Below are positions 51,570 to 54,425 of a DNA stretch of 64,000 bases, piece after piece (the first letter of the stretch is position 1; the number at the start of each line of letters is the position of its first letter). Made by a program: the position numbers and the translations under genes. The notes beneath the pieces were generated by a model. It was not told the DNA's origin. It was given only the letters and a program-made list of their open reading frames with translations, and did no database searches. The DNA lies in IMG/VR virus record IMGVR_UViG_3300044801_000208, positions 1 to 64,000 of that record. The stretch is one strand, 5' to 3'. The stretch is from a virus.

Positions 51570-51645
51570 TGGTGGACCTAAGGGGGCTCGAACCCCTGAC
51601 CTCATCGTTGCGAACGATGCGCTCTCCCAACTGAGCTACAGGCCC
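51570..51645 (-). tRNA. tRNA-Ala (CGC)
   Basis: Acceptor GGGCCTG/TAGGTCC, anticodon stem CATCG/CGATG with loop TTCGCAA, T loop TTCGAGC, encoded ACCA. Confidence 0.9.
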
Positions 51646-51655
51646 AACTTCAAAC

Positions 51656-51732
51656 TGGAGCGGCTGGCGGGATTTGAACCCGCGATCTCTTCCATGGCAA
51701 GGAAGCATTCTACCAGGCTGAACTACAACCGC
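51656..51732 (-). tRNA. tRNA-Gly (GCC)
   Basis: Acceptor GCGGTTG/CAGCCGC, anticodon stem CTTCC/GGAAG with loop TTGCCAT, T arm GCGGG TTCAAAT CCCGC, encoded TCCA. Confidence 0.92.
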
Positions 51733-51746
51733 GTATTTCCAATCTT

Positions 51747-51815
51747 TGGAGCGAGAGACCGGACTCGAACCGGCAGTCTGAGCACACTGTCGTTGTAATC
51801 CATTCCACACCGCTC
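51747..51815 (-). tRNA. Degenerate tRNA
   Basis: The T arm (CCGG TTCGAGT CCGG) and 3' end CGCTCCA are intact, but the 5' half does not form a normal D or anticodon arm and the acceptor pairs only in part. Likely a decayed or rearranged tRNA. Confidence 0.35.
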
Positions 51816-51875
51816 ATAGTCAAAATTTTTGCTGCGTTTACGTCCCAGTCGGTCGATGGCTTTTACCCCATCGCG

Positions 51876-51990
51876 TCAGTCGGGGCATTCGCCGAGGCTG
51901 ACGGACATTCCGTGGTCGTCGAATCTCGTAGCCGAAGCTACGGCGTTTTTCTACCCACTTAAGGGAGTCCACGCGGATGCCACGCAGCAA
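51876..51990 (-). CDS. Possible small gene between tRNAs, frameshifted
   Basis: From TTG 51990 (TTAGAGG upstream) the frame reads LLRGIRVDSLKWVEK. The natural continuation one frame over is NAVASATRFDDHGMSVSLGE to a TGA at 51876. Removing one A from the AAAAA run at about 51949-51953 joins them. Function unknown. The rest of 51816-52001 shows no other gene. Confidence 0.35.
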
Positions 51991-52001
51991 ACCTCTAAAC
52001 T

Positions 52002-52076
52002 TGGAGCGGGTTACCGAAATCGAATCGGTCTCTGTGGCTTGGAGGGCCACGGCACCGCCAGTTATACCTAACCCGC
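52002..52076 (-). tRNA. tRNA-Gly (TCC)
   Basis: Acceptor GCGGGTT/AACCCGC, anticodon stem GTGGC/GCCAC with loop CCTCCAA, T arm CCGA TTCGATT TCGG, encoded TCCA. Position 33 is C instead of the near-universal T. The 3' end of the HNH gene runs 9 bp into it. Confidence 0.85.
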
Positions 52077-52562
52077 TAAACGATAAAACTTTCCACACTG
52101 ACTACTTTCTCGCGTTTGTTTATTGGTAGCGATCAGCCCCTTGTTCCTGTCCTCCGCTGTCTTTACTGCGTGACAGTTCGCACAACGTACGTCACATTTG
52201 GCTATTTCGTCCAAAACTCGCTGCCGACCTTTAGTCCAACCTTGGGCCAAATTGAACTTCTTTTCCTTTGGATCGCGATGGTCGAAGTGCAGGGCTGCTG
52301 CGTATTCCTTGTACCCACAATCCTTGCACCCCAGTTCCAGCTTTACAGAGTCAATCCATTTTCTGCGAGCGGCATACCGGTAATCTCTTGCACGACGGTT
52401 GCAGATAGTTTTTGTTTCTTTACGCTCTTCCGGCGTTTTTACCTGCGTTGAATCTTTGCAGACCCGTGTACAGAAAAATATTTTGTGCTTACACAGCTTG
52501 TACCGCGACGGGTATATGTCAAAGTCATTTTTGCAAACCCAACATTGAACCGTTATCATCAC
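52068..52562 (-). CDS. HNH endonuclease in the tRNA cluster
   Basis: Start ATG 52562 or 52559 after GGGGGAG; 164 aa. N-terminal zinc pair (CWVCKNDF...CTRVC), basic middle, then CKDCGYKEYAAALHFDHRDP and CDVRCANCHAVKT, an HNH core. It lies between tRNA-Gly and the RNase P RNA gene and is much richer in AT than the RNA genes. A mobile insertion in the cluster. Confidence 0.85.
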   Translation of the reverse strand: MMITVQCWVCKNDFDIYPSRYKLCKHKIFFCTRVCKDSTQVKTPEERKETKTICNRRARDYRYAARRKWIDSVKLELGCKDCGYKEYAAALHFDHRDPKEKKFNLAQGWTKGRQRVLDEIAKCDVRCANCHAVKTAEDRNKGLIATNKQTRESSQCGKFYRLAG

Positions 52563-52606
52563 TATTTGCTCCCCCTACTTTGAATACTGTAGAAGGAGCA
52601 AATAGT
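52563..52606. repeat. 12-bp inverted repeat between HNH and RNase P RNA genes
   Basis: ACTATTTGCTCC and its perfect complement GGAGCAAATAGT are 20 bp apart, with a smaller CTAC/GTAG nested inside. It can act as a bidirectional terminator (TTAATTT follows on the + strand) or as an insertion-site mark. The HNH ribosome binding site lies in one arm. Confidence 0.75.
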
Positions 52607-52608
52607 TA

Positions 52609-52970
52609 ATTTACGCGACCTATAAGCGGGGTTCTGTAAGCACCGAAGTGCCCGACAGCCATTCGTCTAATCCACCTATTACTAGGCGGCTCAAGCCCCT
52701 AACCCGCAGATTGATAACGAACCGAGCAAGCTCTCTCTGCCTATTTAGGGTTGCTTCACGCAAGGTTTGCCATGCAACGACTGTTACCAGCCGCCCGGTG
52801 GTCTCTTAAACCGCCTTTTCACCCTTACCGTCTTGCGACGGCGGTATATTCTCTGTGGCACTGTCTATCACGGTTACCCGTGTCCGGGTGTTACCCGGTG
52901 CGCTGCTCTATGTAGCCCCGACTTTCCTCCCCCGTAAAATCACAGCGGCGACTGTCCGGTCAACGTAAAA
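52609..52970 (-). ncRNA. rnpB: RNase P RNA (bacterial type A)
   Basis: All universal landmarks are present in order on the minus strand. P1 is TTTACG-TT-GACC pairing with GGTC-G-CGTAAA. GACAG of P2 pairs with CTGTC near 52655. CR-I GAGGAAAGTCGGGGCT lies at 52914-52929. TGCATGGCAAACC (J11/12) is followed by GTGAAGCAACCCTAAATAGG. A GCACTTCGGTGC hairpin precedes CR-V ACAGAACCCCGCTTATAGG (52619-52637). RNase P cleaves 5' leaders from pre-tRNAs. It sits inside the phage tRNA cluster; no rnpA was seen. Confidence 0.96.
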
Positions 52971-52972
52971 TT

Positions 52973-53049
52973 TGGAGGTCCGGGGGAGAATCGAACTCCC
53001 GCATTTTCACGTTTGCAGCGTGACGCCTTACCGTCTTGGCTACCGAACC
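52973..53049 (-). tRNA. tRNA-Cys (GCA)
   Basis: Acceptor GGTTCGG/CCGGACC, anticodon stem CACG/CGTG with loop CTGCAAA, T arm GGGAG TTCGATT CTCCC, encoded TCCA. Its 3' end is 3 nt from the 5' end of the RNase P RNA. Confidence 0.92.
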
Positions 53050-53056
53050 AAACTAA

Positions 53057-53162
53057 TTGGATCAAGTGCTCTACTACTGAGCTACACCCGCCATCTGTCG
53101 ATAGCCGAAGCGTGACAGTGGGCGGGAGGGCGGGTACGAGACCGCCGACCTCCTGATCCAAA
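53057..53162 (-). tRNA. tRNA with permuted halves (Trp-like)
   Basis: On the minus strand the 3' half comes first (GGATCAGGAGGTC, T arm around GGCGG...CCGCC, acceptor CTCCCGC-CCA; 53119-53162). A 26-nt hairpin CTGTC...GACAG (53093-53118) follows, then the 5' half (GCGGGTG-TA, D arm GCTC AGTAGTA GAGC, then CTTGATCCAA; 53057-53092). GCGGGTG pairs with CTCCCGC (one mismatch), and CTTGA with TCAGG as anticodon stem. CCA in the joined loop suggests Trp. Confidence 0.55.
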
Positions 53163-53164
53163 CT

Positions 53165-53238
53165 TGGCGGGGCGTACGGGAGTCGAACCCGTGTGTCTCG
53201 GTAGACAGCCGAGTAAATTGCCGTCATTCTCACGCCCC
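53165..53238 (-). tRNA. tRNA-Asp (GTC)
   Basis: Acceptor GGGGCGT/ACGCCCC, anticodon stem CTCGG/CCGAG with loop CTGTCTA, T arm ACGGG TTCGACT CCCGT, encoded GCCA. The D arm is atypical. Confidence 0.85.
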
Positions 53239-53311
53239 GGACGCCGAGACGGGAATCGAACCCGTGAATAAACGTTTTGCAGACGTTCGCCTTACCACTT
53301 GGCTACTCAGC
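53239..53311 (-). tRNA. tRNA-Cys (GCA), second copy, 3' end atypical
   Basis: Anticodon stem AACGT/ACGTT with loop CTGCAAA, T arm ACGGG TTCGATT CCCGT, acceptor GCTGAGT with TCTCGGC (partly wobble). The 3' end reads GTCC instead of NCCA and abuts tRNA-Asp without a spacer. Confidence 0.75.
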
Positions 53312-53322
53312 TTACACAAAAA

Positions 53323-53483
53323 TTATGCCGCGATGATTAAGGGGCTGATCCCCATCCCGGCGCTCCGAAGAGCCTTCCGGTATCTATCGCCGTCGCGGAC
53401 GACACACTCTGAGCGCTGTATCCACGTCTTAGGTGGGTGTTCTTCACAGACCGCTAAGTCTGGTACTGGACAGCGCTCAAACT
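53323..53483 (-). other. Coding-like frame lacking a start codon
   Basis: The frame reads FERCPVPDLAVCEEHPPKTW, IQRSECVVRDGDRYRKALRS, then GMGISPLIIAA to a TAA at 53323, with a plausible zinc site. It runs back into tRNA-Ala with no ATG, GTG or TTG. It may be a gene remnant cut off by cluster rearrangement, or use a rare start. Confidence 0.35.
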
Positions 53484-53558
53484 TGGTGGACACAGGGAGA
53501 TTCGAACTCCATAGTTCTCATTGCAAGTGAGACGCATTCCCAATTATGCTACTGGCCC
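53484..53558 (-). tRNA. tRNA-Ala (TGC)
   Basis: Anticodon stem TCTCA/TGAGA with loop CTTGCAA, T arm GGAG TTCGAAT CTCC, encoded ACCA. The acceptor (GGGCCAG with TGTGTCC) has mismatches, so function is less certain. Confidence 0.75.
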
Positions 53559-53570
53559 ACATTCAAAACT

Positions 53571-53646
53571 TGGTGCGCTGGAAGGGACTCGAACCCCCGA
53601 TGAGTGTCTTGTAAGGGCACCGCTTTAGCCGCTAAGCTACCCGCGC
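53571..53646 (-). tRNA. tRNA-Val (TAC)
   Basis: Acceptor GCGCGGG/CCAGCGC (one mismatch), anticodon stem GTGCC/GACAC with loop CTTACAA, T loop TTCGAGT, encoded ACCA. The 3' end of the endonuclease VII gene overlaps it by 15 bp. Confidence 0.82.
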
Positions 53647-54039
53647 AAATCTCTCTACGTACTCTGCCGCAAGCCTCAATAGGTTCGCTCGGTCGCGAAA
53701 ATGACCAAGCCCTAAATTACACCCGCGACACAAAAACCCACGAGCTATATCCGTCTCGTGATTATGATCTAAGTGGGCCTTCCTGAACCCACCCTCGATT
53801 ATTTCAGTACACACGGCGCAATGCCCTTGCTGTCCCGTCCACAAAGTTTGAAGCTCTTCTTCGCTCAAACCTAATCGAGTTCTCTTCCTCTGACTTCGAT
53901 TTGTGCGTTCACATCCCGCACAGAACGGGCGGCGTCCGCTCTTCCGGCTGACATCTGGATAAAATTCTCCCAGCTTCAACCATGCTTCACATCTTGGACA
54001 CCACTTCTCGTGTTCATTAAACTTTTTGTTTCGTCCCAT
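53632..54039 (-). CDS. Recombination endonuclease VII-like protein (135 aa)
   Basis: ATG 54039, with GAGTATTG ending 7 nt upstream, is preferred over the more distal ATG 54048. Zinc pairs CPRC...CAGC in the N-terminal half, then LSEEELQTLWTGQQGHCAVC, AHLDHNHETDIARGFLCRGC and NLGLGHFRD. This is the endonuclease VII motif set (T4 gp49-like, resolves branched DNA), also used by mobile HNH genes. Confidence 0.85.
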   Translation of the reverse strand: MGRNKKFNEHEKWCPRCEAWLKLGEFYPDVSRKSGRRPFCAGCERTNRSQRKRTRLGLSEEELQTLWTGQQGHCAVCTEIIEGGFRKAHLDHNHETDIARGFLCRGCNLGLGHFRDRANLLRLAAEYVERFARVA

Positions 54040-54055
54040 TCTGGACAATACTCGG

Positions 54056-54297: not shown

Positions 54298-54419
54298 TGG
54301 CGCGGGAGGGGCCGGTTGCCAGTCCGACATCAGGCCCTGGTCGGGGATTCCCGGCCGTTGCTTTCGGCGGGTGCTCTTTGGGCTGCCGCCCTAGCGTTTG
54401 AGCTACACCTTCCCGCGCC
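54298..54419 (-). ncRNA. tRNA-like structured RNA (122 nt)
   Basis: The ends GGCGCGGGA and TCCCGCGCC-A form a perfect 9-bp stem closed by a CCA-like end, and TGTAGCTCAAACGCTAGGGC resembles a D arm. The interior has hairpins (GGGC GGCA GCCC; GGCCGGG...) but no normal anticodon or T arm. It carries the same AGTTT spacer as the tRNAs. Confidence 0.45.
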
Positions 54420-54425
54420 AAACTT

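Follow-up and report, generated by a model that had tools for sequence, protein, structure and literature searches.

A permuted tRNA-like RNA element in the tRNA gene cluster of a soil phage

The element and its neighbours in the tRNA array

The DNA analysed here (the window) comprises 64,000 nucleotides, positions 1 to 64,000 of the IMG/VR virus record IMGVR_UViG_3300044801_000208 (G000), which has 97,808 bases, is classed as linear and is probably a fragment of a phage genome. The element comes from the tRNA gene cluster of a soil phage and occupies window positions 53057-53162 on the minus strand, as do all the window features given below, within an array in which ARAGORN recognised 12 tRNAs. 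Its upstream neighbour is tRNA-Asp (GTC; 53165-53238), the CCA of which is followed by an AGTTT spacer (53160-53164) whose last two T residues lie inside the outer helix of the element; downstream, a TTAGTTT spacer (53050-53056) stands ahead of tRNA-Cys (GCA; 52973-53049). A class A RNase P RNA of the same array (52608-52967; RF00010, 268.9 bits) lies 90 bases from the element on the same strand, with tRNA-Cys in between. Literature on phage-encoded RNase P RNA was not found in a search that reached few subscription journals. The array also contains a gene resembling that of recombination endonuclease VII (53632-54048; PF02945), and it starts with a strongly folded multi-arm RNA (54298-54420; 3' end TCCCGCGCCA; z -3.41, none of 200 shuffles as stable) that is tRNA-like, yet was not called by ARAGORN. 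The sequence CCAAGTTT, a tRNA CCA followed by the AGTTT spacer, is repeated at five tRNA 3' ends (51570-53573) and is possibly a processing signal.

Read from 5' to 3', the element begins with the outer-helix strand TTGGATCAGG (53152-53161), which corresponds to an extended 3' strand of an anticodon stem, and continues with a variable region AGGTC (53147-53151; AGGTC or AGGTT in all eight rows of alignment A6), a T-arm-like hairpin GGCGG-TCTCGTAC-CCGCC (53129-53146) and the 3' strand of an acceptor-like stem, CTCCCGCC (53121-53128). A cap or linker, CACTGTCACGCTTCGGCTATCGACAGAT (53093-53120), leads to the 5' strand of that stem, GGCGGGTG (53085-53092), which is followed by TA, a D-arm-like hairpin GCTC-AGTAGTA-GAGC (53068-53082), a single A and the second outer-helix strand, CTTGATCCAA (53057-53066). 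Both arms were identified from the fold and from the covariance model R1 described below. All ten pairs of the outer helix form without interruption, one of them G-U; the T-arm stem has five of five pairs, the D stem four of four, and the acceptor-like stem seven of eight, with one U-U mismatch. This permuted cloverleaf is the minimum-energy fold of the element (-46.7 kcal/mol, z -3.91), and none of 200 shuffled sequences was as stable; for a longer stretch around the element, z was -2.88 and two of 200 shuffles were as stable. A tight structural scan for permuted cloverleaves returned three sites in the window, and only in the element was the outer helix prolonged by at least three pairs, whereas the same scan of 100 dinucleotide-shuffled windows returned 57 sites, none of them so prolonged.

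The initial annotation had described this stretch as a circularly permuted, Trp-like tRNA gene. Its central observation, that a 3' half stands ahead of a 5' half within the tRNA cluster, was confirmed on the minus strand from 53162 to 53057. The linker joining the acceptor strands does contain the CTGTC/GACAG hairpin, but we counted 28 nt rather than the 26 nt given. The outer ends pair as claimed, yet not around an anticodon, for they form one continuous helix that leaves no free anticodon loop. A D arm, a T arm and an acceptor stem are likewise present, but the loops are not canonical: the T loop has 8 nt (UCUCGUAC) and the D loop, AGUAGUA, is without GG. As for the CCA, a discriminator base fits between it and the acceptor strand only if one acceptor pair is sacrificed.

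Similar elements in related phages

The nearest named phage, as judged by the tail protein (38% identity over 68%), is Tunturiibacter phage Tunturi_5 (308,711 bases), described as a jumbo phage of Acidobacteriota (PMC11924767). A search of viral_contigs with an alignment of the two tail proteins, from the window and Tunturi_5, gave 38 relatives, several of them contigs of 150-463 kb; searches of viral_contigs with the tail protein alone, with a sigma-factor-like protein and with a 27-mer gave no relative. RNase P and tRNA searches, which took in 27 of the 38 relatives plus Tunturi_5, found class A RNase P RNA in 15 and tRNAs in 22 of these 28 records, counts that are not independent because some records look like local near copies (equal RNase P scores pair G008 with G009, G010 with G025, G017 with G027 and G021 with G022). 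When 3,701 bases were compared with phages by blastn, 216 records were matched, and the 20 of these that were listed match stretches with ordinary tRNAs or the RNase P RNA.

A scan of tRNA clusters with the ordinary tRNAs masked (40 stretches, the Tunturi_5 stretch and G000) gave 19 matches, several plainly due to chance, and among them G007, G010, G016, G021 and Tunturi_5 contributed permuted elements whose T loops are canonical. Five of these elements (one each from G007, G010 and G021, two from G016), with the window element left out, were used to build R1. In G000 the window element was the top match (53062-53156; 48.4 bits, E 4.7e-12), followed at 42.3 bits by a junction of tandem tRNAs, and the best match beyond the tRNA cluster in the 97,808 bases reached 12.1 bits. 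Over 29 records R1 matched in 23 and returned 30 loci, mostly tandem tRNA junctions, the highest-scoring of which (G019) reached 57.3 bits. Since R1 also scores such junctions, its E-value carries meaning here only because no tRNA called by ARAGORN overlaps the window element; on the same ground we rejected a tandem tRNA artefact, although such pairs do fool scans. Nine loci were tRNA-free with a permuted fold, namely two each in G021 and G016 and one each in G010, G007, G017, Tunturi_5 and G000; a further element, in G027, was recognised through the YrlA model RF02553 and by eye, which brings the tally to ten elements in eight records. A tRNA-free match in G014 was not counted, its E-value being 0.0256.

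Base pairs were counted on an alignment made with the model (A7), because the first MAFFT alignments misplaced either Tunturi_5 or the 8-nt loop. A7 holds eight distinct elements under an E-value limit chosen to exclude the known tandem junction of the window, and the G027 element was kept out of both R1 and A7. In A7, 95.8% of 165 cells were paired, and the covariation score was 0.685, compared with 0.208 for shuffled and at most 0.158 for slid controls; 13 of 21 pairs had changed on both sides, including all five pairs of the outer helix. The test leans towards the structure, because five of the eight rows had built R1. A T loop of 8 nt like that of the window element was found a second time, in one of the two G021 elements (L191).

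In four records, G000, G016, G027 and G017, the element lies within 0.5 kb of an RNase P RNA on the same strand. The distance is approximately 440 bases in G016, where strand and order are as in G000, and about 10-40 bases in G027 and G017; in G007 and G010 the element and RNase P RNA are far apart. The Tunturi_5 element, which is unannotated (PP885688.1:253899-254012, plus strand, L004:48899-49012; R1 45.2 bits), lies not far from genes for RtcB and a tRNA nucleotidyltransferase (CCA-adding enzyme) beside tRNAs. One permuted element of G021 (G021:111300-111500, L111:7300-7500) is apparently nested inside a second tRNA-like gene, at its anticodon loop, in the order 5' half A, 3' half B, 5' half B, 3' half A. 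The idea that the elements of the relatives are insertions in protein genes was dropped after reading in three frames, which gave no long frame through them.

YrlA, Ro60 and stalked Y RNAs

The YrlA model RF02553 gave full-length matches in G010 (45.1 bits), G016 (44.6 and 30.6 bits), G021 (41.9 bits) and G007 (38.8 bits), and its gathering score of 69 bits was reached in none of 23 records. The window element aligned to the full model in a 181-base scan with 17.6 bits (E 0.21), a score that by itself decides nothing, because a tandem junction of ordinary tRNAs in the same cluster scored the same. At E-values up to 1 the model also matched in 12 of 14 control genomes, mostly, we think, at tandem tRNAs. 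The 5' and 3' ends of YrlA are described as forming a large basal stem that binds Ro60 (Rsr), its T and D loops as being modified in tRNA fashion by TruB and DusA, and its tRNA-like part as binding PNPase (PMC8394870). The loops of the window element that correspond to the modified ones are the non-canonical UCUCGUAC and AGUAGUA.

TROVE was found in three of 29 records (G007, G010 and G027), and all three of these Ro60-encoding records contain a permuted RNA. Each of the three Ro60 frames carries TROVE and vWA, the vWA_Ro60 model scoring above its cut-off in one of them, and one frame aligns almost end to end with TROVE proteins of known structure. The elements of these three records share a stalk, with TTACTTC or ATACTTC on the 5' side and TTTGTTCC on the 3' side, that by eye is not apparent in the elements of G000, G016, G021 and Tunturi_5; no TTACTTC motif was seen near the window element, and no Ro60 gene was found within the 97,808 bases of G000, a fragmentary record. 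The Ro60 gene of G010 (L131:844-2274) is directly followed by a small Y-RNA-like stem (about 2840-2920) with the same stalk motif. Some phages among the related records combine Ro60 and Y RNAs with an RNase P RNA of their own.

A broader pattern search of viral_contigs returned at least 80 loci; among the 92 matches listed, 13 were tRNA-free, and 12 of these 13 had six or seven of seven acceptor pairs. TROVE was sought at 50 of the 80 listed loci (all 12 tRNA-free, well-paired ones and 38 of the other 68) and was found at five of the 12 permuted loci versus three of the 38 others (one-sided Fisher p 0.014); on inspection, one of the latter three (L228) proved to hold a permuted element that had been called as a tRNA by mistake. 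Therefore, the permuted domain belongs to a Ro60 Y RNA in many phages. Five of the Ro60-associated permuted RNAs (L210, L226, L228, L256 and L273) have a hairpin with an anticodon-like loop (CTGCTAA, ATGCTAA or CTGTTAA) ahead of the T arm, a layout as if they were permuted between the D arm and the anticodon arm.

YrlA in phages (PMC7765460) and TROVE in jumbo phages (PMC7824862) have already been published. Given that the tRNA-like domain of YrlA has the permuted order and that phages are reported to carry it, the earlier statement that no such arrangement is known from phages was too strong. Our search, which covered few subscription journals, found no literature on permuted tRNA genes in phages or on a YrlA domain that lacks the stalk and lies in a tRNA array.

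Permuted tRNA gene, remnant or tRNA mimic

When the two halves of the window element were joined in silico, ARAGORN recognised a tRNA in five of 720 joins, always as Gln (TTG), and in one of 224 joins of another set, so the assignment as Trp-like was not supported. Joined halves from seven relatives were recognised in 350, 410, 205, 665, 315, 545 and 0 of 720 joins. The junction has no bulge-helix-bulge (BHB), only the continuous 10-bp helix, and RtcB, found in one of 18 records (Tunturi_5), was not found in G000. A review of permuted tRNA genes gives U8, R15:Y48, G18G19, U33, U54U55C56 and a BHB as their features (PMC3978253); by inspection, the window element has only U8 and G15:C48, and its position 33, read in the register of the anticodon stem, is C. 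Thus, of the proposed circular permutation, the tRNA-like fold is borne out by folding, covariation and the relatives, whereas the tRNA gene is not, given the missing BHB, the failing joins and the missing RtcB; permutation with ligation was accordingly rejected as the best reading.

Several alternatives deserve to be weighed. A true circularly permuted tRNA gene would require cleavage and ligation of the ends within the anticodon loop, and RNase P together with a 3' nuclease would then open the circle at the acceptor stem, to give a tRNA for Trp (CCA) or another amino acid. The order of the halves, the complete stems and the RNase P RNA in the array would suit such a gene, as would the RtcB and CCA-adding enzyme encoded beside tRNAs in the distant relative Tunturi_5 and the fact that six of seven relatives yield readable tRNAs when their halves are joined; yet the closed helix without anticodon loop or BHB, the rare joins read as Gln, the absent G18G19 and U54U55C56, the C at position 33 and the confinement of RtcB to a record other than G000 make it a distinctly improbable explanation. 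The element might instead be a dying remnant, the drifting rest of two tRNAs that arose by tandem duplication and of which the first has lost its 5' half and the second its 3' half. Loops off consensus amid ordinary tRNAs speak for this reading, the loss of canonical bases from the T and D loops could mean decay, and similar tRNAs in tandem do look like permuted genes. We nonetheless consider a remnant unlikely, because only one of 27 stem pairs is broken although the loops have changed, the outer helix is longer than that of a tRNA, similar elements are kept in seven other records, those aligned covary, and the G021 element L191 has a like 8-nt T loop.

It is also conceivable that the element is a regular YrlA Y RNA with a divergent stalk, the Ro60 partner of which is encoded in the unsequenced part of the phage or in the host. 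The full-length RF02553 alignment in the narrow scan and the Ro60 genes and stalked Y RNAs of G007, G010 and G027 point in this direction; however, no stalk motif lies nearby, and a stalk would not fit because only a few spacer bases separate the element from the neighbouring tRNAs, so that this explanation seems very improbable.

The explanation that we favour, and regard as reasonably probable, is that the element is a small non-coding RNA with a defined structure, which mimics tRNA and has the build of YrlA without the Ro60-binding stalk. Its sequence, fold and covariation and the similar elements in related phages are the observations from which we infer how it may be transcribed, processed, kept stable and bound. 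As modelled, the layout would yield the elbow and acceptor arm of a tRNA, with the anticodon end closed, the acceptor end capped and no free CCA end. A mimic that stands alone is suggested because only the tRNA-like part is present, and processing of the tRNAs on either side would release it. The element would be transcribed together with the tRNA array and freed as its neighbours mature, through 3' processing of tRNA-Asp upstream and RNase P cleavage at the 5' end of tRNA-Cys downstream, for which the phage's own RNase P RNA would be available. The product would be a stable RNA of about 115 nt with short tails (53164-53050), and it might act by occupying a protein that recognises the body of tRNA. 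PNPase is a candidate partner, as for YrlA; alternatively, the element may be an uncleavable decoy for a host anticodon nuclease. YrlA of Salmonella is reported to be uncut by a tRNA-cutting anticodon nuclease and has been proposed as its competitive inhibitor (PMC7790460). One could envisage, as a speculation to which we give a rather low probability, that huge soil phages make closed, anticodon-less tRNA decoys that need no Ro60 and are freed by the processing of their neighbours with phage RNase P RNA, and that these decoys shield phage tRNAs from host anticodon nucleases or tRNA-degrading enzymes. What had been claimed as an impossible tRNA gene becomes, on the favoured explanation, a testable tRNA mimic, and a phage with such a domain minus the Ro60 stalk would separate the idea of tRNA mimicry from the biology of Ro60.

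Among known systems, permuted two-piece tmRNA has a tRNA-like domain in which a linker joins the acceptor strands, and the element resembles it in this respect; unlike tmRNA, it has no tag frame or pseudoknots that we could see. A tmRNA was rejected as a candidate: no tmRNA match covers the element, the match at 53176-53193 falls on the T arm of tRNA-Asp, and ARAGORN called no tmRNA. The circularly permuted tRNA genes known from algae and from one archaeon also place the 3' half first, with a linker between the acceptor strands that measures 7-74 nt in C. merolae (PMC3978253). In contrast to these genes, the element is without a BHB, an anticodon loop, U33, G18G19 and U54U55C56, and it is not recoverable as a tRNA. 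It differs from YrlA in having no Ro60-binding stalk, its 10-bp helix being followed at once by the flanking tRNAs, in an acceptor arm capped by 28 nt rather than a short loop, in its non-canonical T and D loops, and in its score (17.6 bits, where the gathering score is 69) and the lack of a Ro60 gene in the 97,808-base fragment. Because it is without the Y-RNA stalk and reaches only 17.6 bits with RF02553, we file it not as YrlA but as a stalk-less YrlA-like tRNA mimic: as in the Rfam consensus of YrlA, a T arm, a closed acceptor-like hairpin and a D arm are set within a helix that replaces the anticodon stem, and both RNAs have the build of a tRNA mimic without an anticodon.
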